Positions 26,795 through 47,325 of a stretch of 64,000 bases of DNA are shown piece after piece; position 1 is the first letter of the stretch; each line of letters starts with the position of its first letter. Position numbers and translations under genes: made by a program. The notes beneath the pieces were generated by a model. It was not told where the DNA came from. It saw only the letters and a list, made by a program, of their open reading frames with translations, and did not search any database. The stretch is from Paludibacteraceae bacterium. GTDB lineage: Bacteria > Bacteroidota > Bacteroidia > Bacteroidales > Paludibacteraceae. The DNA is taken from the NCBI GenBank assembly GCA_017503075.1, contig JAFVTU010000021.1, forward strand, positions 42,437 to 106,436, given 5' to 3'.

Positions 26795-28066
26795 ATGAAT
26801 ATGTTAGCAATTTTATATTCTGTAGGAGTTTTCCTTGCTGTGATTCTCCTGTTAGTAGTGATTCTCTTGGTAGCTAAGAAATACCTCGTTCCTTCGGGCG
26901 ACGTGAAAGTGGTTATCAACGGTGATAAGGAATATCATATCCCTGCAGGTGGCACATTGCTTGGCGCTATGGGCGAAGCAGGCGTACACTTGCCATCTGC
27001 TTGTGGTGGTAAGGGTTCTTGCGGTCAATGTAAGTGCCAAGTGCTCGAAGGTGGTGGCGAGATTCTCCCTACTGAGACGGTTCACTTCACCCGCAAACAA
27101 CAAAAAGACCACTGGCGTCTTGGTTGCCAAGTCAAGGTGAAAGGCGATATGCAACTCAAGTTAGACGAGTCTGTACTCGGCGTTAAGGAATGGGAGTGTA
27201 CCGTTATCAGCAACCGCAACGTGGCTACCTTTATCAAGGAGTTCAAGGTGGCTTTGCCTCCAGGCGAGCACATGGACTTCGTGCCTGGTTCGTATGCACA
27301 AATCCTTATCCCTGAGTACGATATCGATTACAACAATTTCGACCGCGAGTTGATTGGTGACTTGTATGTCCCAGCATGGGAGAAATTCGGACTCTTTGGC
27401 TTGAAGCAAAAGAATACTGAGGCAACGGTGCGTGCATACTCTATGGCTAACTACCCAGACGAGGGTGATATCATCACCTTGACTGTGCGTATTGCTACCC
27501 CACCATTCAAACCAAAAGAGCAAGGTCCTGGCTTCATGGATGTACCATGTGGTATCGCTTCTACCTATATCTTCAACCTCAAACCAGGTGATAAGGTGAC
27601 TATGTCAGGTCCTTATGGTGACTTCCACCCTATCTTCGATAGCAAACGCGAGATGATTTGGGTCGGTGGTGGTGCAGGTATGGCTCCATTGCGTGCACAG
27701 ATCATGCACATGTTGAAGACCTTGCACACTCGCGACCGCGAGATGCATTATTTCTATGGTGCTCGTGCTATTGATGAGGTATTTTTCATGGAGGACTTCT
27801 TGGCATTGGAGAAGGAGTATCCTAACTTCCATTTCCACTTGGCATTGGACCGTCCAGATCCTAAGGCAGATGCTTTGGGTGTTAAATATACCGCTGGCTT
27901 CATTGCTCCAGTCTTGGGCGACACCTATCTGAAGCAACACGACGCTCCAGAAGACATCGAGTACTACCTCTGCGGCCCTCCTATGATGGCAAAGACAGTG
28001 CTTGACCTCTTGCACTCGCTGGGTGTAGAGGACGATATGATCATGTTTGACAATTTCGGTGGTTAA
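26795..28066 (+). CDS. nqrF: Na+-translocating NADH:quinone reductase subunit F
   Basis: A 423-residue NADH-oxidising subunit. One N-terminal helix, then a [2Fe-2S] ferredoxin domain (SACGGKGSCGQCKC with the fourth Cys in RLGCQVKV), an FAD domain (RAYSMANYP) and the NADH domain (WVGGGAGMAPLRAQI, YLCGPPMM). AGGAGG ribosome site upstream. It ends VEDDMIMFDNFGG. Degenerate copies of its last 20-30 codons occur at 28173-28226, 28334-28412 and 47231-47325. Confidence 0.98.
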   Translation: MNMLAILYSVGVFLAVILLLVVILLVAKKYLVPSGDVKVVINGDKEYHIPAGGTLLGAMGEAGVHLPSACGGKGSCGQCKCQVLEGGGEILPTETVHFTRKQQKDHWRLGCQVKVKGDMQLKLDESVLGVKEWECTVISNRNVATFIKEFKVALPPGEHMDFVPGSYAQILIPEYDIDYNNFDRELIGDLYVPAWEKFGLFGLKQKNTEATVRAYSMANYPDEGDIITLTVRIATPPFKPKEQGPGFMDVPCGIASTYIFNLKPGDKVTMSGPYGDFHPIFDSKREMIWVGGGAGMAPLRAQIMHMLKTLHTRDREMHYFYGARAIDEVFFMEDFLALEKEYPNFHFHLALDRPDPKADALGVKYTAGFIAPVLGDTYLKQHDAPEDIEYYLCGPPMMAKTVLDLLHSLGVEDDMIMFDNFGG

Positions 28067-28085
28067 TCCGAAGGATTTAAATAAG

Positions 28086-28172: not shown

Positions 28173-28226
28173 CGAGTGGAGCAGGTCAAGTATAGTCTTT
28201 TTCATGGGAGATGAGCCGCAGAGGTA
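28173..28226 (-). pseudogene. nqrF 3' fragment, antisense copy (b)
   Basis: Reads YLCGSSPMKKTILDLLHS on the minus strand, against YLCGPPMMAKTVLDLLHS of nqrF. It stops there and is not attached to any gene. Its DNA (CTGCTCCACTC) is closer to the other two fragments than to the resident nqrF (CTCTTGCACTC). Confidence 0.8.
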
Positions 28227-28238
28227 CCCAATCAAACA

Positions 28239-28332
28239 GGGCTCCCGCAAATTTCTAATTTGTGGGAAGAGGAGGAATCGCGATCGCCCAATGCCGCAGA
28301 GCGGCAGTCAATGCGACAAGCGCATTCCGACG
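28239..28332 (+). repeat. Hairpin repeat A, copy 1
   Basis: First stem-loop TCCCGCAAATT/AATTTGTGGGA (28243-28253/28257-28267, one G-T). Outer arm GGAAT (28274-28278) pairs with ATTCC (28324-28328), then GCG with CGC and TCGC (28284-28287) with GCGA (28313-28316). Apical stem TGCCGC/GCGGCA (28292-28297/28301-28306, loop AGA). Arms differ in sequence from the other copies but keep pairing. It lies between nqrF fragments b and c. Confidence 0.75.
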
Positions 28333-28333
28333 A

Positions 28334-28412
28334 GGCAAAGACTGTGCTTGACTTGCTCCACTCATTGGGTGTTGAGGACGACATGATTATGTTCGATAAT
28401 TTTGGCGGATAA
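28334..28412 (+). pseudogene. nqrF 3' fragment, sense copy (c)
   Basis: Encodes AKTVLDLLHSLGVEDDMIMF and DNFGG with a stop, the same protein end as nqrF, but with many synonymous differences, so it derives from a diverged nqrF and is not a fresh duplicate. The stop codon lies in an 11-bp perfect stem-loop, AATTTTGGCGG (28398-28408) with CCGCCAAAATT (28414-28424). TTCGGCTGTTGG follows, as it does (slightly changed) after fragment d. Confidence 0.85.
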
Positions 28413-28466
28413 ACCGCCAAAATTCCTTCGGCTGTTGGATTTATGGCATGCCGAAAGACAATAATA

Positions 28467-28483
28467 TAATACACGCGCACATG
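28467..28483 (+). repeat. Island-boundary word, left copy
   Basis: TAATACACGCGCACATG is identical at 28467-28483 and 47117-47133, on the inner side of the nqrF fragments at each end of the island. Confidence 0.75.
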
Positions 28484-28496
28484 CGCGGATATGCAA

Positions 28497-28523
28497 AGAG
28501 AGCCGCTGATAGTGCGGCTCTCT
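28497..28523. terminator. 10-bp perfect hairpin
   Basis: AGAGAGCCGC (28497-28506) pairs with GCGGCTCTCT (28514-28523), loop TGATAGT. No long T-run follows, so termination is uncertain; it could be a transcription barrier at the island edge. Confidence 0.5.
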
Positions 28524-28687
28524 TCGTGTATACTTGCTATCCGATGAAAGAAAGAGTTGGTTTCCCGAATGCCGAACGCGAGATTTCGCCCATTTTTAAA
28601 TGTCCGCTCACTTCGTTCGCGTGTTATAGCATGTTTCGTCTGCCAAAACAATTCTACTTAATCCGCTATCGCGTTATTCATTTAATA

Positions 28688-28785
28688 TGGGGTCCCCGCA
28701 AATTTTCAATTTGTGGGGAGAGCGAAGGCAGCAGTCGCCCTAATGTCGCCGAGCGACATTCATTGCGACCTGCTTGCCGAACGCG
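28688..28785 (+). repeat. Hairpin repeat A, copy 2
   Basis: Begins GGGGTCCCCG. First stem CCCCGCAAATT/AATTTGTGGGG (28694-28704/28708-28718). Long stem GGCA, GCAG, TCGC (28727-28738) with GCGA, CTGC, TGCC (28765-28778; single-base bulges at 28769 and 28774). Apical stem AATGTCGC/GCGACATT (28742-28749/28753-28760). Same order of elements as the other three copies. Confidence 0.82.
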
Positions 28786-28890
28786 ATTTTGCGCCCTCTG
28801 GTCGCAACATCTGATAACAGATGTATTCCCATAGTCTGTCCTGTGCTCGGCGGTAGATCGCCGAGTATTTCCGCCTATTTCCTATAGTAG

Positions 28891-28983
28891 CTTGCGGCGT
28901 CCAATAGCGAAGCGTCCAATATCCAATAGCCCGTAGGGCGTCCCATATCCTATAGCCAGCGCTTCAGCGCGAGGCGTCCTATT
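28891..28983 (+). repeat. Hairpin repeat B, array of three units
   Basis: Three units of the form CCNATAG, a variable stem-loop, CGTCC: stems are CG/CG, CCC/GGG (CCCGTAGGG) and CC-GCGC/GCGC-GG (around TTCA). The same unit with other stems occurs three times inside the DUF5675 gene (29528-29590). Confidence 0.72.
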
Positions 28984-29369
28984 GTCAGCACGAGGATTGC
29001 CAACAGCAATCCCGTGCACCACCGATAGAACTTCGGCACATACCGCTCTGGCGGTAGTTGAACCACCTCTTTTTCTACCCGCACATCTACTACCGTATCG
29101 CGTTCCACCCGTGTCCGCCAGCAGTCCCGCCATTCCACCCGCGTCAGAAACACCGTGTCACCTTGCTGTTTCTCACTCACAAACACGCTGTCGTGCAAAT
29201 AAATGGTATCAACCCTTGCACTCCTCTGGATGAAGCTCGTAGTATCGTTGCTCTGCACGACGGGCATCGATTTCGTGCTTTTGCAACTCACGCTCACAAG
29301 GATGATTATACCCATACTCAGTACCCGCACGAAAATCCGTGACTTCCAAAATAATCTCTTCATGTTCAT
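28950..29369 (-). CDS. Small lipoprotein with a C-terminal membrane helix (u-spanin-like)
   Basis: A 139-residue protein. The N-terminus MKRLFWKSRIFVRVLSMGI leads to a lipobox-like LVSVSC near residue 30 (-3 position is Ser, so imperfect). A charged, probably extended middle (VDTIYLHDSVFVSEKQQGD, then RTRVERDTVVDVRVEKEV) precedes one C-terminal helix (WCTGLLLAILVLTIGRLALKRWL). An outer-membrane lipid anchor plus an inner-membrane helix in one chain is the architecture of phage unimolecular spanins. The first 54 codons overlap the end of the DUF5675 gene in another frame, as spanin genes often nest. The function is inferred from architecture only; other small envelope proteins could look alike. 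Confidence 0.6.
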   Translation of the reverse strand: MNMKRLFWKSRIFVRVLSMGIIILVSVSCKSTKSMPVVQSNDTTSFIQRSARVDTIYLHDSVFVSEKQQGDTVFLTRVEWRDCWRTRVERDTVVDVRVEKEVVQLPPERYVPKFYRWCTGLLLAILVLTIGRLALKRWL

Positions 29370-29778
29370 TTTGTGCTTTTAGAATTAAACTTGTTAGTTC
29401 TCTCTCCACATCCGCCGCAGTTCGTCCAATCCCCTTGCCGCGCAATGTGTTGTCCGCCACTACCAGCACGCACCCACTTGAATGTTCTGGCTTACTACCT
29501 CTGTGTATGCGTATTCCTTGCCTATATCCCATAGCGCCATTGGCGCGTCCTATAGGCGTAGCCGTCCCATAGCCGCTTTGCGGCGTCCGGGGAACGCCAG
29601 TGACCAACGGCAGCAGCCGCTTAAATTTTGGCGATTGTGTCACGCAGACATGATAACATAGTGCAGGAATCTCCACGCCATTCCGCTCCAGCGTGTTGCA
29701 GAACCATCTGCCATCAATCACCAGCCGCCCAGTAATCGCATTCCCTTTTGCCTCATTTCGTATCAATCGTATATACAT
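29209..29778 (-). CDS. DUF5675 protein with an in-frame repeat insertion
   Basis: A 189-residue protein: MYIRLIRNEAKGNAITGRL, FCNTLER, SPKFKRLLPLVTGVP, GIRIHRGSKPEHSSGCVLV are the DUF5675 pattern (a fold seen in phages and mobile islands and possibly acting on cell wall; unproven). Between VTGVP and GIRIHRG, where the family normally continues directly, lie about 24 residues encoded by three hairpin repeat B units (29528-29590). The frame and the conserved parts on both sides are intact. The frame stays open to 29931 but ATG 29778 gives the family start. The last 161 bp overlap the u-spanin-like gene. Confidence 0.75.
   Translation of the reverse strand: MYIRLIRNEAKGNAITGRLVIDGRWFCNTLERNGVEIPALCYHVCVTQSPKFKRLLPLVTGVPRTPQSGYGTATPIGRANGAMGYRQGIRIHRGSKPEHSSGCVLVVADNTLRGKGIGRTAADVERELTSLILKAQNEHEEIILEVTDFRAGTEYGYNHPCERELQKHEIDARRAEQRYYELHPEECKG
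29528..29590 (+). repeat. Hairpin repeat B units inside the DUF5675 gene
   Basis: Units CCCATAG-CGCC/GGCG-CGTCC, CCTATAG-GC/GC-CGTCC and CCCATAG-CCGC/GCGG-CGTCC. They have the same flanks as the intergenic array at 28891 but different, still self-complementary, stems. Confidence 0.72.
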
Positions 29779-29795
29779 ATTCTTTCTCTTTGAGC

Positions 29796-29864
29796 GCGCC
29801 AGGATGTGCGGGGTCCCCGAAAAAGCTCGCTTTTTGGGGTGCTTTTGATTGGCGCGCAAGTTGT
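29796..29864 (+). repeat. Nested hairpin upstream of DUF5675
   Basis: CCCCGAAAAAG/CTTTTTGGGG around CTCG, preceded by GGGGT like hairpin repeat A, and enclosed by GCGCGCCA/TGGCGCGC arms. It looks like a further, structurally different relative of repeat A. Confidence 0.55.
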
Positions 29865-29902
29865 TTATGTTGTTTTCTAAAATAAAAAGAATACTTGTTG
29901 TC

Positions 29903-30088
29903 TTATTCCTTATATCTATACTTATAGTCAATCCCTATAAGCGAGCCCGAGAATGTCAGTATCTCTCCAAACGCTATCAATAGCGAGTGATGTATCTCGC
30001 CCACAGGCGGTGTCACAAAACCTGCTACCAGTAATGCGCAGCCAAAACTGCACATTACGATAGCAGTTGTCAATTGTAAGCGTTTCAT
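29903..30088 (-). CDS. Holin-like two-helix membrane protein
   Basis: A 61-residue protein with two membrane segments (LTTAIVMCSFGCALLVAGFV and HSLLIAFGEILTFSGSLIGI) joined by a short TPPVGEI loop and ending in a charged tail KYRYKE. Small proteins of this type are common in Bacteroides mobile modules. Class and size fit a holin, and the neighbouring DUF5675 and u-spanin-like genes support a lysis role; nothing in the sequence proves it. It lies 2 bp after the next upstream gene. Confidence 0.62.
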   Translation of the reverse strand: MKRLQLTTAIVMCSFGCALLVAGFVTPPVGEIHHSLLIAFGEILTFSGSLIGIDYKYRYKE

Positions 30089-30090
30089 GG

Positions 30091-30420
30091 TTATTTACCA
30101 CTTTCAATCTGATCGCGCATCAAGTTCCAAACATACTGATACAAAGTCTTGTACTTCGTTTGCTTGATAAAGCCCACCTGGTCTTGAGCGATGTGATTTG
30201 GATCCATCATGCGCTCACGAGTAGCAGCACAAATCTGTGCAAACATCTCTTGCCAAGCGAGTTCACTTGCTCCGTATGGAGTCGTTCGCTCACCTATCAC
30301 TGCGCATCCGCGTTGTCGTTTACCGCGCTTACGGCGTACTGCCACAAACTTTTGTTTTTTACCAAAAATCTTGCCCGATGCATTATCCACGGGCGCTAAA
30401 TAAAATACACTTCCAGCCAT
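30091..30420 (-). CDS. Small basic protein of the VirE module
   Basis: A 109-residue basic protein: MAGSVFYLAPVDNASGKIFG, then KFVAVRRKRGKRQRGC, and a helical C-terminal half (SELAWQEMFAQICAATRERM, QDQVGFIKQ). It shares the plan (short beta start, basic loop, helical tail) with the three other small proteins at 30540, 31272 and 31912. No function known. Confidence 0.62.
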   Translation of the reverse strand: MAGSVFYLAPVDNASGKIFGKKQKFVAVRRKRGKRQRGCAVIGERTTPYGASELAWQEMFAQICAATRERMMDPNHIAQDQVGFIKQTKYKTLYQYVWNLMRDQIESGK

Positions 30421-30539
30421 AGTTTTGTTTAGTTTTAATTGGTTTAAAAGTTTAATGATTGATTAGTTAAGAGTGTGCACCTTTAGAACTGTTTAAACAG
30501 CACCGCAGGTGCGACTAAAACTCTTTCAACTAGCGAAGC

Positions 30540-30851
30540 TTACTGCTTCGCGAATACTTGCGCCACCACATACCCACGCAGTGTCACATACTTCTTTTGC
30601 GCTTTGAATTTCGCTTCGTAGGTAGCTCGTTGCTCTGGATCCGCAAGGATAGTTGTCGCTTGTGTTTGTGCTTCTTTGAAAGCATTACGCACTGCCTGCT
30701 GCGCTTCACTGTTGCCACCGTCATAAGGGTTCTTCACACGCACACCAATGGTGGCATTGTCTTTCTTGCGGTTACGAAAATGAATCTCATCCGAACCTGA
30801 GAACTTCTTTTGAATCGAATCAAAAGGAGTGGAATTTTTGATAATTGCCAT
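30540..30851 (-). CDS. Small protein of the VirE module
   Basis: A 103-residue protein: MAIIKNSTPFDSIQKKFSG, DEIHFRNRKKDN, then a helical half with ADPEQRATYEAKF, matching ADPTQRAAYEQLQ in the 31912 protein, so the two are related. The stop codon lies in the loop of a 7-bp hairpin (GCGAAGC/GCTTCGC, 30533-30551). Confidence 0.65.
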   Translation of the reverse strand: MAIIKNSTPFDSIQKKFSGSDEIHFRNRKKDNATIGVRVKNPYDGGNSEAQQAVRNAFKEAQTQATTILADPEQRATYEAKFKAQKKYVTLRGYVVAQVFAKQ

Positions 30852-30958
30852 AGTTAAAATTTAGGTTTAATAATTAGGATTTTCAATGTCTCTAGAGTAT
30901 CTAGAATTTCTAAGACATCTATTTTCTCGTTTTTTTATCGCGTAGCGTGTTCCTTGTA

Positions 30959-31055
30959 TCCATCCGAGAACCTCGTGGGTTCGAGGATAGAGCGGAGGTA
31001 GCAGTCGCCTAACGATGCAAGGCATCGGTCATTGCGACCTGCTTACCGAACGCGA
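30959..31055 (+). repeat. Hairpin repeat A, copy 3
   Basis: First stem is rebuilt with other bases (GAACC/GGTTC, 30968-30972/30978-30982). Long stem GGTA, GCAG, TCGC (30997-31008) with GCGA, CTGC, TACC (31034-31047): the outer pair GGTA/TACC replaces GGCA/TGCC of copy 2. Apical stem CGATGC/GCATCG (31013-31018/31022-31027). Ends CCGAACGCGA like copy 2. Confidence 0.82.
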
Positions 31056-31113
31056 GTGCAAAGATACACATAAAACCCCTTTTTTGTTGGTGAATTTCAC
31101 CACTTGTTACTAT

Positions 31114-31275
31114 TTATCGCGATTTTCTTTTCGCCACAATCTGTCTCACTCTCTCCTCGCTCAAATAGAACTGTTTTCCAATCATTACATATAATTCCAT
31201 CACAGGCATTCCTTTGCCTAATTGTTCATAGAAGCATTTTCGTATTGCCTTATTTCTTCGTGCTTGATCTGTCAT
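31114..31275 (-). CDS. 53-residue HTH-like protein
   Basis: Short gene: MTDQARRNKAIRKCFYEQ, then KGMPVMELYVMIGKQFYLSE and ERVRQIVAKRKSR. The last half resembles a sigma-region-4 or Mor-type helix-turn-helix (YLSEERVRQIV). Its ATG overlaps the stop of the upstream gene (ATGA at 31272-31275), which supports translation. Probably a small DNA-binding protein; partner unknown. Confidence 0.62.
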   Translation of the reverse strand: MTDQARRNKAIRKCFYEQLGKGMPVMELYVMIGKQFYLSEERVRQIVAKRKSR

Positions 31276-31541
31276 ATCTCCTTGCCTTTAACTTCTAAAC
31301 CATTACCTCGCCCATCGGCGACACTACCGCTCGCTTGCGAGCCATCACCACGGCACAGCCGTCTATACTGCTGAATAAATCGTTGTTGATTTTCCCTTTC
31401 TTTCTCTGTTGCCACATGCCCCTTCCGATTCGGGCATCGTTGCACCACATATTTCCCATGCAGTTTTCGGATATAAAACCCATCCTCCAATCGTATTTTT
31501 CCCCTCACCCCTTCCACTGGTTTCTTAAATGTCACTATCAT
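31272..31541 (-). CDS. Small basic protein of the VirE module
   Basis: An 89-residue protein: MIVTFKKPVEGVRGKIRLED, KYVVQRCPNRKG, TEKERENQQRF. The middle resembles the 31912 protein (KTYAYQMRKTPKRIPSEKEK, KQRQRF), so they are distant paralogues. It is translationally coupled to the downstream 53-residue HTH gene. Confidence 0.62.
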   Translation of the reverse strand: MIVTFKKPVEGVRGKIRLEDGFYIRKLHGKYVVQRCPNRKGHVATEKERENQQRFIQQYRRLCRGDGSQASGSVADGRGNGLEVKGKEI

Positions 31542-31911
31542 ATATTCTTATATTATCAGTCGTTTTGTTTTGCCCACCAATGACTTTTATATTGTTTTGG
31601 GGTTGCCAATGCGCCCAGCGCATTCTTCCAACCCAAACAATATGTTCATTGAATTGACAATAATTGACAACCCTATTGACGTTAATTGTCTTAAAAAAAT
31701 GATCATTGATTTTTTCATATTTTTGTAGGCACATTGTGCCGTTATTTTTGTTTCAAATATTGTCGTTCTCAAATGCGCCCTTTCTTCAATGGGGTCCCCG
31801 CAAATTTTTAATTTGTGGGGAAATCGGAGACAGCAGTCGCCACAACGATGACGGGGTCATCGGTCAATGCGATCTGCTCGTTGACGATTAGGCGACCACC
31901 ATAGGACATCT
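31542..31911. other. Non-coding stretch with TTGACAA repeats and hairpin repeat A copy 4
   Basis: No gene seen. AATTGACAA occurs twice with 10-bp spacing (31652-31660, 31662-31670), followed by TTGAC (31676) and the inverted AATTGTC (31684-31690), a possible operator. Hairpin repeat A copy 4 fills 31790-31893. Confidence 0.5.
31790..31893 (+). repeat. Hairpin repeat A, copy 4
   Basis: Begins GGGGTCCCCG. First stem CCCCGCAAATT/AATTTGTGGGG (31796-31806/31810-31820). Long stem GCAG, TCGC (31833-31840) with GCGA, CTGC (31869-31877); its outer part is weak. Apical stem CGATGA/TCATCG (31846-31851/31857-31862). Confidence 0.78.
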
Positions 31912-32253
31912 CTAGGACATCTGTGGGCTTTCTGTGGCTGTTACTGGCAGCAATGTGGCAGCCACTTTTTGAAACACAAATTTCCGCAAGGTCATTTTCT
32001 TTGCCCCATATGTATCTTTCTGTAGTTGCTCGTATGCAGCGCGTTGTGTAGGATCTGCCATGATGGCTGACACCATTTTAGTAATGATTGAGAATCGTTG
32101 CCTTTGTTTCTTTTCTTTTTCGCTGGGTATCCGTTTCGGTGTCTTGCGCATTTGATACGCGTATGTTTTCCCCGATGGTGACTTACGAAAAACTACATCA
32201 CCGATTCTTCCACTGACGGATGCAATCCCATCCATAAATGTTACTCTTGCCAT
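31912..32253 (-). CDS. Small protein of the VirE module
   Basis: A 113-residue protein: MARVTFMDGIASVSGRIGD, VVFRKSPSGKTYAYQMRK, SEKEKKQRQRF and IMADPTQRAAYEQLQKD. This is the most typical member of the small family seen four times in this module; such proteins accompany VirE-type genes in Bacteroidales, from memory. Function unknown. Confidence 0.7.
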   Translation of the reverse strand: MARVTFMDGIASVSGRIGDVVFRKSPSGKTYAYQMRKTPKRIPSEKEKKQRQRFSIITKMVSAIMADPTQRAAYEQLQKDTYGAKKMTLRKFVFQKVAATLLPVTATESPQMS

Positions 32254-32420: not shown

Positions 32421-33671
32421 TTACTCCTTCAACAGTCGCTTGAGACTTGCTATTTCATCCGTATCTCTTTGATATACAAGCCATCCGCGTATCAATCGTC
32501 CTCCTATTTTAGGTCGTGTTGATTGGTATCCAGCAGCACCTAACACCATCCCCAACCTACTCAAAGCCATCGGTTTCTTGATGTTACCGTATGTCACCAA
32601 CCGTTCACTGATCTGTGCCGTCGTCATAAACTCCCCTTTGCCCTCGGCAGGCACATCAAAGAGTATCGGCAGCAACTGCTCCTCATTACTCTCATCCCTA
32701 AAATGCTGATTATGCTCCTCCAGCACCTCTATCTCATCCAAATCAAACCAGTAACTGAACAGCGGATCTTGTGCCAATGCCCATGCTTGCGCATACATCC
32801 GCTCGTAAGGCAGGAGGGTGTAAAACGGATTCTGTATACTCTCCACCTCAAACGGCAACCAACGCCTATTGCCCGTAATATCCGTCAGGAAATCCCGCCT
32901 ATTGCCACTGGCGCAGAAACTCGCCAACCGCACCCTGCGCTCCTTGGTGTAAGCATAGGCAGCACGCTCGTTCACATCCGTGGCGGTAATGACTGATTTC
33001 AGTTGATTGAGCTCACGGTTATTCATCGAGTCAATCTCATCTAGCGAGATAAGCCCAAACTCCGCAATACGCAGCCGTTCATCTTTGTTCAAATCGTTGC
33101 TATTCGCCAACTTACACGCATATGCACGCAGATGTGGCGGTATAAGGTGTTCCAACCAAGTAGTCTTAAAGATACCTTGTTTACCAATCAGCACGAGTAC
33201 CTGATGATTCACCACCTCATCCTTCATCCAACTCGCCACCATCGCCACAAACCATTTCTTGAAGCATCCCCGCCATAATCTCTCGCCTCTCGCCTTATCG
33301 CCTTTAGCCTCATCGCCGAACGGTTTTACCGTCACCTGCTGCGCCACCCAATCAATCCAATCAGGCTGCTCCTCCGTCCATTCTCCACACGACAACACAT
33401 ACTCCCTCAGCGGGTGTACATCGGGTATCAGATCCGATTGGAGTGCAGTCATCACCTCGCGTGAGGTGATATTCGCATCGTACTCCTGCGCACAGTGACA
33501 CACAATAGAGTTAATATCATGCTTCGTCATCTCTCGCCAATATTCCCCGCCTTTAACCTCCTCCAAATCCATGCGAATTTGGAGTTTATCGCTCACAATG
33601 TCATGTCTCAATCGCCTATAATCCAAGTAATTCTCCGTAATGTACTTGATTGCAGCTTCTTGTTTGGTCAT
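32421..33671 (-). CDS. VirE/VapE-type P-loop ATPase
   Basis: A 416-residue protein of the VirE (PF05272-type) ATPase family found in mobile islands and phages, probably a replication helicase/primase helper. Walker A is GKQGIFKTTW near residue 168; SLDEIDSMNNRELNQLKSVI is Walker B with sensor; ASGNRRDFLTDITGNRRWLPF is a family signature. A winged C-terminus follows (TTAQISERLVTYGN). Residues about 119-131 (EAKGDKARGER) come from the purine-rich word tract shared with the tilS 3' end. Its ATG overlaps the XRE gene's stop (ATGA), so the two are one transcript. Confidence 0.85.
   Translation of the reverse strand: MTKQEAAIKYITENYLDYRRLRHDIVSDKLQIRMDLEEVKGGEYWREMTKHDINSIVCHCAQEYDANITSREVMTALQSDLIPDVHPLREYVLSCGEWTEEQPDWIDWVAQQVTVKPFGDEAKGDKARGERLWRGCFKKWFVAMVASWMKDEVVNHQVLVLIGKQGIFKTTWLEHLIPPHLRAYACKLANSNDLNKDERLRIAEFGLISLDEIDSMNNRELNQLKSVITATDVNERAAYAYTKERRVRLASFCASGNRRDFLTDITGNRRWLPFEVESIQNPFYTLLPYERMYAQAWALAQDPLFSYWFDLDEIEVLEEHNQHFRDESNEEQLLPILFDVPAEGKGEFMTTAQISERLVTYGNIKKPMALSRLGMVLGAAGYQSTRPKIGGRLIRGWLVYQRDTDEIASLKRLLKE
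33280..33317. repeat. Purine-rich word tract inside virE
   Basis: Reverse complement reads GGCGATGAGGCTAAAGGCGA, then TAAGGCGAGAGGCGAGAG, nearly the tract at 8291-8330 (tilS end). It is in frame. Confidence 0.7.
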
Positions 33672-33985
33672 AATATTTTAGCTATTTGTTGTAAGATGTT
33701 TTCGGTAATATCTTTGTTTGTTCTTATTGCAATGATAGTTGTGTTTTTATCCATGTATCGGACTATCTCATTCTCTTTTTCTGTTCTAATCAACTCTTCA
33801 CCATCCACCCCGAAGAACTCAGCTATTGGGTCAAGCAGGTTTAGGTCAAACGGGTGCTGCCCATTGAGCATTTTACCGAGATTGGACTTGTCCATGTCGA
33901 TGCCTTCAGCCAATTCACTTTTGGTGATGTTTCGTTCTCGGAGCAGGCGATTGACGTGCTCGCAAAGTATTTGTTTTGAGTTCAT
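33668..33985 (-). CDS. XRE-family transcriptional regulator
   Basis: A 105-residue repressor-like protein. A Cro/C1 helix-turn-helix covers residues 7-62 (LCEHVNRLLRERNITKSELA, MDKSNLGKMLNGQHPFDL). A C-terminal half follows (EIVRYMDKNTTIIAIRTNKD) that may dimerise. ATG 33985 is used rather than GTG 33991. Upstream are two identical-plan palindromes (34025-34041, 34055-34071) that fit an autoregulatory operator. It heads the minus-strand VirE module. Confidence 0.85.
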   Translation of the reverse strand: MNSKQILCEHVNRLLRERNITKSELAEGIDMDKSNLGKMLNGQHPFDLNLLDPIAEFFGVDGEELIRTEKENEIVRYMDKNTTIIAIRTNKDITENILQQIAKIL

Positions 33986-33995
33986 TTTCACGCTG

Positions 33996-47133: not shown

Positions 47134-47212
47134 GGTGCGTGTGTATTTTGTATTATCGTGAAACTGTAAAGGCATCCTATCGTGTAATCTTTTCCCCTAA
47201 CAACCGAAAGCG

Positions 47213-47325
47213 TATTGGCAGTTACTGCCAATATCATCAAACATAATCATGTCATCCTCAACACCCAGTGAGTGGAGCAGGTCAAGCACAGTCTTGGACA
47301 TCATTGGAGAGCCACAAAGGTAGTA
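47213..47325 (-). pseudogene. nqrF 3' fragment, antisense copy (d)
   Basis: On the minus strand it reads YYLCGSPMMSKTVLDLLHS, then LGVEDDMIMFDDIGSNCQ, the nqrF end with a changed last part. A 9-bp stem-loop TATTGGCAG/CTGCCAATA (47213-47233) sits where fragment c has its own, differently sequenced hairpin, and TTTCGGTTGTT follows, as after c. Its DNA is much closer to fragment c than to nqrF. Confidence 0.82.

Follow-up and report, generated by a model that had tools for sequence, protein, structure and literature searches.

Miniature elements derived from IS200/IS605 (PATEs) carry subterminal hairpins and are probably recognised as single strands, and the mobile double-hairpin elements of mitochondria are short, consist of two hairpins and lie dispersed in spacers. 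The present report deals with a dispersed repeat of about 100-115 bp, also made of two hairpins, four copies of which lie in a 64,000-nucleotide stretch (the window) of contig JAFVTU010000021.1 from a Paludibacteraceae bacterium (assembly GCA_017503075.1). It differs from PATEs in that a link to a transposase is not seen and the left side shows no fixed target tetranucleotide; the mitochondrial elements are organellar, and the likeness to them is one of description. The fold of the repeat is strongly maintained as foldable sequence, and its main new feature, which goes beyond the original prediction for this locus, is a right end that in many copies lies flush with functional boundaries.

The accessible text of PMC3733652 describes REP and REPIN sequences as GTAG- and CGTC-tagged palindromes of 20-40 bp. 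CGTC families are reported there without a dedicated transposase; their stems, 8-9 bp long, almost always start with a paired AT, and they have a CCA-like tail. As far as that text goes, our family resembles these sequences: its repeats are extragenic, dispersed, species-specific and foldable, and one of their ends has a fixed foot. It differs from REP sequences in its length of about 100 bp, in having two unlike hairpins with a bulged, freely varying stem, and in lacking a GTAG tag; compared with the CGTC families, its stem is longer than 8-9 bp, starts with GG rather than a paired AT, is bulged, and has a boundary-flush right end. On the reverse strand the foot reads TCGTCGGAAT in type 1 copies, with TCGTC preceding the stem, and TCGCGTTCGGCAA in type 2 copies (the types are defined below).

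In the available part of PMC6006769, the TnpAREP subclass 2.6 genes of Bacteroidetes are flanked by atypical hairpins that have copies elsewhere in the genome. Our family shares with those hairpins the host phylum, unusual secondary structures and dispersed copies.

This REP-like double-hairpin repeat family is new: the literature searched (without supplementary files) holds no earlier description of it, and the accessible part of PMC12306157 contains no occurrence of Paludibact-. The original prediction knew of no named element with such a layout, and none turned up in Rfam either. The window has no gathering-level match in Rfam 15, and in ten loci compared with Rfam 15 at a threshold of E<=1 none of the matches spans a copy. 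A weak sX4 match (E 0.11), which lies chiefly on a tRNA-Ser, shares 12 nt with the end of one copy.

Architecture, covariation and distribution

On the left of each copy is a hairpin, hairpin 1, which a short linker rich in purines connects to the core hairpin. In the core, outer and variable stems are followed by the inner stem TCGC/GCGA, whose right arm has a bulge of one base, and by an apical stem-loop. Stems start with GG in nearly all copies and contain bulges. Two types are distinguished by their fixed ends, which are AAGAGGAGGAAT and ATTCCGACGA in type 1 (copy 1 of the window and many others in the genome) and GGGGTCCCC..GGGGAGAGCGGAGGCA and TTGCCGAACGCGA in type 2 (copies 2-4). Type 2 has the left foot GAGAGCGGAGGCA and TTGCCGAACGCGA as its usual right foot, from which copy 4 deviates. 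A mixed form, with a type-1-like hairpin 1 and a type 2 core, is found at the tRNA-Arg locus of genome G070. Some copies form tandem arrays in the same orientation. The window copies are as follows.

28236..28333, plus strand: copy 1, type 1; 92.9 bits (covariance model match 28236-28337); fold z -3.95; right end 28333
28687..28786, plus strand: copy 2, type 2; 106.5 bits (match 28687-28789); fold z -5.08; right end 28786
30955..31055, plus strand: copy 3, type 2; 91.7 bits (match 30955-31058); fold z -3.16; right end 31055
31789..31887, plus strand: copy 4, type 2-like with tail GACGA; 71.9 bits (match 31789-31893); fold z -4.62; right end 31887

The original prediction described four copies in a single orientation with named stems, and all of these are present at the sites given for them, each copy being about 100 bp long. 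The scores refer to R1, a covariance model built from nine copies of the window's own genome, the four window copies among them; the next-best R1 match within the window has 14 bits. The z values compare each copy with its shuffled versions, of which 0, 0, 1 and 1 per 200 fold as well as copies 1-4, respectively. Copy 1 consists of hairpin 1 (GGGCTCCCGCAAATT..AATTTGTGGGA), then AGAGGAGG, the bulged core hairpin GGAATCGC..GCGCATTCC and the tail GACGA; in copy 2, hairpin 1 is followed by GAGAGCGAAGGCA, the variable stem GCAG/CTGC, the inner stem TCGC/GCGA, the apical stem and TTGCCGAACGCGA. The tail given in the original prediction for copies 2 and 3, CCGAACGCGA, is present in both; copy 1 terminates in ATTCCGACGA and copy 4 in GACGA. 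The single layout proposed for all four copies stands as regards hairpin 1 and the core, but copy 1 belongs to a distinct subtype (type 1).

The stems were predicted to differ by compensatory changes, and the enlarged set of copies bears this out. The alignment used to measure covariation contains 115 matches, drawn from 99 sources, namely the window and 98 loci picked by hand (a word search finds a copy in 190 loci). Of its cells 92.3% pair, and in 32 of the 33 pairs both partners vary. Its covariation score is 0.532; shuffling gives 0.149, with none of 500 shuffles reaching the real value, and sliding the partners gives 0.075 at the most. Since the alignment was fitted to the structure model, the variable stem was retested with anchoring on the fixed words only and with the arms left unfitted. 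Of 143 distinct cores, 142 have a Watson-Crick pair 1 (CG 50, TA 38, AT 37, GC 17; the remaining core has TG), 141 a Watson-Crick pair 2, 129 a Watson-Crick pair 3 and 116 a Watson-Crick pair 4 (with 13 G-T); all four pair types are common at pairs 1-2. The two arms are perfect complements in 108 of the 143 cases, against a mean of 13.5 with shuffled partners.

G-T pairs occur once in 143 at each of pairs 1 and 2 of the variable stem. Over whole cores, G-T and A-C are counted 54 to 51 in type 2 and 7 to 13 in type 1, while tRNA acceptor stems, scored similarly, give 21 to 1. (The strand test, on 96 cores, excluded as false L065, L094 and one match each in L028 and L067.) Taken by themselves, the near absence of wobble at pairs 1-2 and the core counts would point to DNA or to a strand-blind process; hairpin 1, the apical stems and the variable stem as a whole, with more G-T than A-C (counts below), speak the other way.

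Two structural variants should be mentioned. In genome G009 (L049, L100, L104, L117, L118) a tandem G-A mismatch by the inner stem (CC-GA-GGAC / GTCC-GA-GG) replaces the one-base bulge. Hairpin 1 of copy 3 contains, in our reading, tandem G-A mismatches, a motif similar to that of G009.

The search of the genome by covariance model suggested in the original prediction yielded further copies, at 31 places in the window's genome (R1, E<=1; contigs C13 and C29 hold the same three copies); the copies are interspersed repeats with a maintained fold. In the first genome set R1 matches occur in 18 of 41 genomes, all within the genus. A second covariance model, R2, built from the 115 matches, finds 1-53 copies in 32 of the 39 genomes of the genus. 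In other genera of the order none of 390 genomes, three of them from the same family, had a copy by R2, in a search of limited sensitivity with stricter filters and ten candidates scored per genome; the order-wide search found copies in just three genomes, all of this genus. A scan of 84,980 species genomes with an exact pattern gave at least 119 stretches; the 80 titles listed are Paludibacteraceae, Bacteroidales or Bacteroidia, one being a Prevotellaceae title, and the hosts named among the matches listed are mostly ruminant. The family is apparently restricted to this one genus of gut bacteria. Carriage by phages or plasmids was considered and rejected: the exact pattern has no match in viral contigs, and copy 2 has no blastn match in phages and plasmids at E<=0.01.

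The right end and its boundaries

In 194 type 2 copies the sequence is conserved up to CGCG and a following A (81%); at each of the 14 positions beyond, the commonest base reaches 44% at most. This sharp right end is joined to unrelated sequence. The left ends (112 examined) lie by an A/T-rich, G-poor stretch with no fixed target tetranucleotide. The relation to boundaries was assessed for 212 copies, i.e., 223 regular-expression hits in 275 loci less 11 that failed the pairing filter. A boundary was defined as a tRNA or tmRNA end, a start codon, a facing stop codon or a promoter box. Nine of the 212 depart from the two end words by at least five substitutions; no fewer than four of the nine (in L028, L145, L256, L268) look false. 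Some tests covered smaller sets (104 or 103 matches), and L094 was retained in the flank tables.

The right end is 0-5 nt from a boundary in 81 of the 212 copies and the left end in 5. Shifted controls, in which the test began 15-90 nt further to the right, give 6-10 of 212. After similar right flanks were merged, 58 of 177 clusters are flush; without the nine doubtful members the figures are 80 of 203 for the right end, 4 of 203 for the left end and 58 of 169 clusters.

The boundaries are of several kinds. Ends of tRNA or tmRNA genes lie 0-5 nt away in 42 of the 212 copies and start codons in 9. Where a same-strand tRNA or tmRNA lies to the right, it starts 0-3 nt from the right end in 37 of 46 cases, 18 of them at exactly 0; antisense genes of this kind end within 0-1 nt in 5 of 9. 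For open frames of at least 60 aa, the start codon is 0-2 nt from the right end in 9 of 134. Among 108 cases with a facing stop codon, 13 have it at 0-4 nt, and the next distance is 19 nt; one of the 13 overlaps a tRNA-Gln case. In 20 copies a box CAAAnnTA, which we take to reflect the promoter consensus, lies 1-5 nt away (17 of them at 2-3 nt) and is directed inward. Copies are found in both orientations relative to genes. These boundaries share neither sequence nor a known biochemical state; their common trait is that selection protects what lies beyond. As they are of unlike kinds, no single target signal would be common to them.

Other right ends are joined to the inside of further copies, in hairpin 1 (L018) or in the apical loop (L055, L092), or to duplicated 3' parts of 5S rRNA (L073, L097; the gene is assigned by reading), of tRNA-Gln (L029) and of nqrF (the window). 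Inverted flanks are clear at nqrF and 5S and, in our reading, perhaps present at tRNA-Gln. As a general feature they were rejected, 5 of 103 being above the 99th percentile of the controls, one of which is the L094 artefact. The idea that new copies always arise to the right of old ones was also discarded: same-orientation word hits among the 212 are 14 on the left and 15 on the right, many of them by chance.

Some sites can be compared across species (the names groEL, infB and rpoD are our assignments). Among 30 displayed groEL loci, out of 52 genomes with a match, the element stands upstream of the gene in G000 only. In most loci without the element an AT-rich run precedes the ATG; in G000 this run is missing up to T|ATG. 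At infB there is a type 1 copy in G000 and G055, a type 2 copy in G074, a decayed one in G070 and none in G014 and G041. In the tRNA-Arg leaders of closer genomes the promoter-proximal left part is common, and the part adjacent to the tRNA is either the element or another sequence. At tRNA-Leu(GAG) different subfamilies occupy the same place in different species; by a simple test, 25 of 30 displayed loci lack element words, and 9 of these 25 leaders have a paired end 0-2 nt from the tRNA.

Several copies with their ends at or close to start codons (L195, L225, L234, L237, L219, L080, L026) have an extra left hairpin of the CCCCTCnnnnnGGCAnGGAGG type; several start-codon copies also share a TCGG variable stem and possibly form a specialised leader subfamily. 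A hairpin of another type (GCGGAGGCCGCTCCTCCCG..CGGGAGGACGCTCCG) is flush with the 5' end of tRNA-Arg in four genomes (L375, L381, L384, L385).

Neighbouring genes and the search for a mobilising enzyme

The features adjoining copies 1 and 3 in the window are listed below.

26795..28066, plus strand: intact nqrF, source of the duplicated 3' end (open reading frame; name by sequence reading)
28173..28226, minus strand: inverted partial nqrF 3' end just left of copy 1, 74% to 27965-28018 (inverted repeats I1, I2)
28334..28416, plus strand: second nqrF 3' end, 81% identical to 27988-28070 (direct repeat D3)
31059..31066, minus strand: promoter-like -7 box TATCTTTG, 3 bases past the right end of copy 3 (sequence reading)

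The second nqrF 3' end begins at the first base past the right end of copy 1. A third extra fragment (47199-47295, minus strand) follows what we read as its own promoter-like sequence; the extra fragments (28334-28416, 28173-28226 and 47199-47295) near the intact gene are both direct and inverted. The copies were said to lie between minus-strand genes, which is not true of copy 1, located just past the plus-strand nqrF. The box TATCTTTG (consensus TAnnTTTG) points into copy 3 and toward the gene at 30540-30851, which encodes 103 aa; the 20 promoter-flush cases include this copy (locus L008).

Three of the four copies are near a mobile-looking module of minus-strand genes, namely 32421-33671 (VapE-like), 33668-33991 (Cro/C1-type helix-turn-helix) and 29209-29931 (DUF5675). 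A solitary hairpin 1 (GGGGTCCCCGAAAAAGCTCGCTTTTTGGGG) with no core hairpin occurs at 29810-29839. Three minus-strand genes of the window (30091-30420, 30540-30851 and 31912-32253) encode small basic proteins of about 100-130 aa with the pattern MA.V.......VSG.L.K. They belong to a multi-copy family with further members in L184, L195, L160, L356 and other loci, and several genes of the family begin directly after an element copy. Proteins of this kind, present near some copies, were considered as a candidate mobilising factor and set aside: for the three window proteins Pfam and NCBIfam give no match above the curated cut-off, and in PHROGs nothing scores better than E 0.033.

The original prediction considered a RAYT/TnpA-type transposase as a possible carrier, and this part of it is not supported. 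Among 25 genomes of the genus searched both ways, copies and a Y1_Tnp match (E<=0.01) coincide in 12; another 8 have only copies, 2 have only a Y1_Tnp match and 3 have neither. The eight with copies alone are G002, G004, G005, G006, G012, G014, G017 and G021; some of these eight are incomplete, and G014 (16 copies) and G017 (12), both 98% complete, have no Y1_Tnp match at this threshold. A clear copy within 1.5 kb accompanies 1 of 14 HUH loci inspected in the genus (L144), as judged by eye from loose word hits. These eight genomes and this single locus distinguish the family from RAYT-mobilised REP sequences, where a Y1/HUH gene is flanked by copies, and, by description, from the hairpins of subclass 2.6 (PMC6006769, in its accessible part). 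RAYT action in cis or in trans was rejected since Y1_Tnp matches do not track the copies. The window's genome has one weak Y1_Tnp protein (369 aa, L009:754-1863, minus strand) with no copy nearby; it combines an HUH/Y1 domain with a long C-terminal part and is encoded beside a gene resembling those for type I restriction specificity.

Reverse transcription was rejected as well. RVT_1 is present in 9 of the 39 genomes of the genus, and among the eight with at least 16 copies (G000, G001, G007, G009, G014, G050, G051, G054) only G054 has a reverse transcriptase match (E<=0.001).

Possible mechanism and rival explanations

Tentatively, but as the likeliest of the readings considered, we propose that the repeat is a mobile DNA element, specific to the genus, non-autonomous, about 100-115 bp long, active at one end (the right) and moved in trans by a putative enzyme. 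The left hairpin and the long bulged core hairpin would be recognised in single-stranded DNA by this enzyme, and the right end would be the active terminus. Aborted or repeated one-ended events may join the right end to nearby DNA, and the right-hand spacer would be lost until the next base protected by selection; where the joining point lies further upstream, tandem duplications such as those at 5S rRNA, tRNA-Gln and nqrF would result. Compensatory changes would accumulate because only copies that still fold could be mobilised or kept. A process that removes or replaces the DNA to the right of the element until this becomes harmful fits all the kinds of boundary, and right ends joined inside other sequences are consistent with it. 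Variation in copy number from 0 to 53 within the genus, combined with conserved ends, is what characterises a miniature transposable element. That the family represents a new kind of mobile DNA, a double hairpin whose one active terminus keeps deleting or replacing the DNA on one side up to the first protected base, is in our opinion doubtful.

Several observations weigh against the mobile element. No transposase for the copies was found in Y1_Tnp and reverse transcriptase searches of the genus genomes, and no clean pair of inserted and empty sites with near-identical flanks was found, the ortholog sets being too diverged. Long direct repeats exceed the 99th percentile of the controls in 12 of 103 copies, L094 being a regular-expression artefact, i.e., in about one copy in ten; among the 14 best direct repeats other than L094 the right repeat starts within 2 nt of the right end in seven and elsewhere in seven. 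Left-side start codons at 0-2 nt number 4 of 138 with a rough boundary, and one lies within 0-5 nt when the boundary is defined by the fold. The tRNA-Arg leaders without the element in G041 and G074 end in ...ACGCGCACGA and ...ACGCGCGAG, and such "empty" sites with element-like tail words may be decayed copies. In 14 of the 21 tRNA-Arg leaders lacking element words, pairing extends to within 0-2 nt of the tRNA (41% when shuffled); as these leaders often end in an adjoining hairpin, flushness at tRNAs may be useful in itself. The occupation of one site by different types in different species (infB, tRNA-Arg, tRNA-Leu) fits re-insertion but also evolution in place. As to the strand test, G-T exceeds A-C in hairpin 1 (97 to 44), in the apical stems (37 to 17) and in the variable stem (19 to 5), which counts against a DNA-level or strand-blind reading.

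This last excess is what one would expect of a structured RNA, already named as an option in the original prediction: a 5' leader, or a processing or stability element of tRNA, tmRNA or mRNA, that has spread and whose 3' end lies at the RNase P site or by the start codon. The 42 copies at tRNA or tmRNA ends and the 9 at start codons, including those of infB, L32 (by reading) and, in G000, groEL, speak for it, as do the TCGG stem and extra left hairpin shared by several start-codon copies and a copy upstream of a sequence resembling a TPP riboswitch (L038, 51.1 bits, below the gathering score of 54.3). We nevertheless consider this explanation unlikely: the variable stem is almost purely Watson-Crick at pairs 1-2, the G-T to A-C counts of whole cores are far from those of tRNA stems, and copies occur in both orientations; they also abut stop codons of facing genes and promoters in antisense, and at these places the RNA would have to correspond to the opposite strand. 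The near absence of wobble could alternatively result from template-switch correction of quasi-palindromes in inert old repeats, paired changes then arising without selection and the arms being Watson-Crick only. However, correction should erase the one-base bulges, which persist in the right arm while adjacent pairs change, and it leaves the sharp right end and its flushness unexplained; we hold it to be very unlikely.

Flushness could also arise if insertion targeted functional boundaries directly, for instance single-stranded or paused DNA at RNA ends or at hairpin feet such as that of the tRNA cloverleaf. The 37 of 46 same-strand tRNA and tmRNA genes at 0-3 nt, with 18 at 0, and the occupation of the same sites across several species agree with such targeting, but facing stop codons and start codons have no common biochemical mark, and there is no strong base preference beside the right end; we regard this as distinctly unlikely. 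A recombination site of the folded att-like kind known from integrons, with DNA units inserted beside the right end, would account for conserved ends, bulged bases on one arm, variable inner stems and some arrays in the same orientation. It is, we presume, a most improbable explanation, given that the units at the right end look native (by our reading, groEL is in the groES-groEL arrangement in most ortholog displays) and that no integron core words were noticed, the attC motif not having been searched for.

REP-like repeats are widespread in bacteria; for CGTC REPs, PMC3733652 states that the way in which families lacking a transposase spread is still an open question. The present family combines an unusually strong record of paired changes with a measurable one-sided relation to gene boundaries, owing to which transposition with one-sided deletion, an RNA leader and boundary targeting make distinct testable predictions; its covariance models find copies in related genomes. 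If the repeat is indeed a mobile element that deletes or replaces one side, its right ends would map functional boundaries of the host, i.e., tRNA ends, start and stop codons and promoter boxes.

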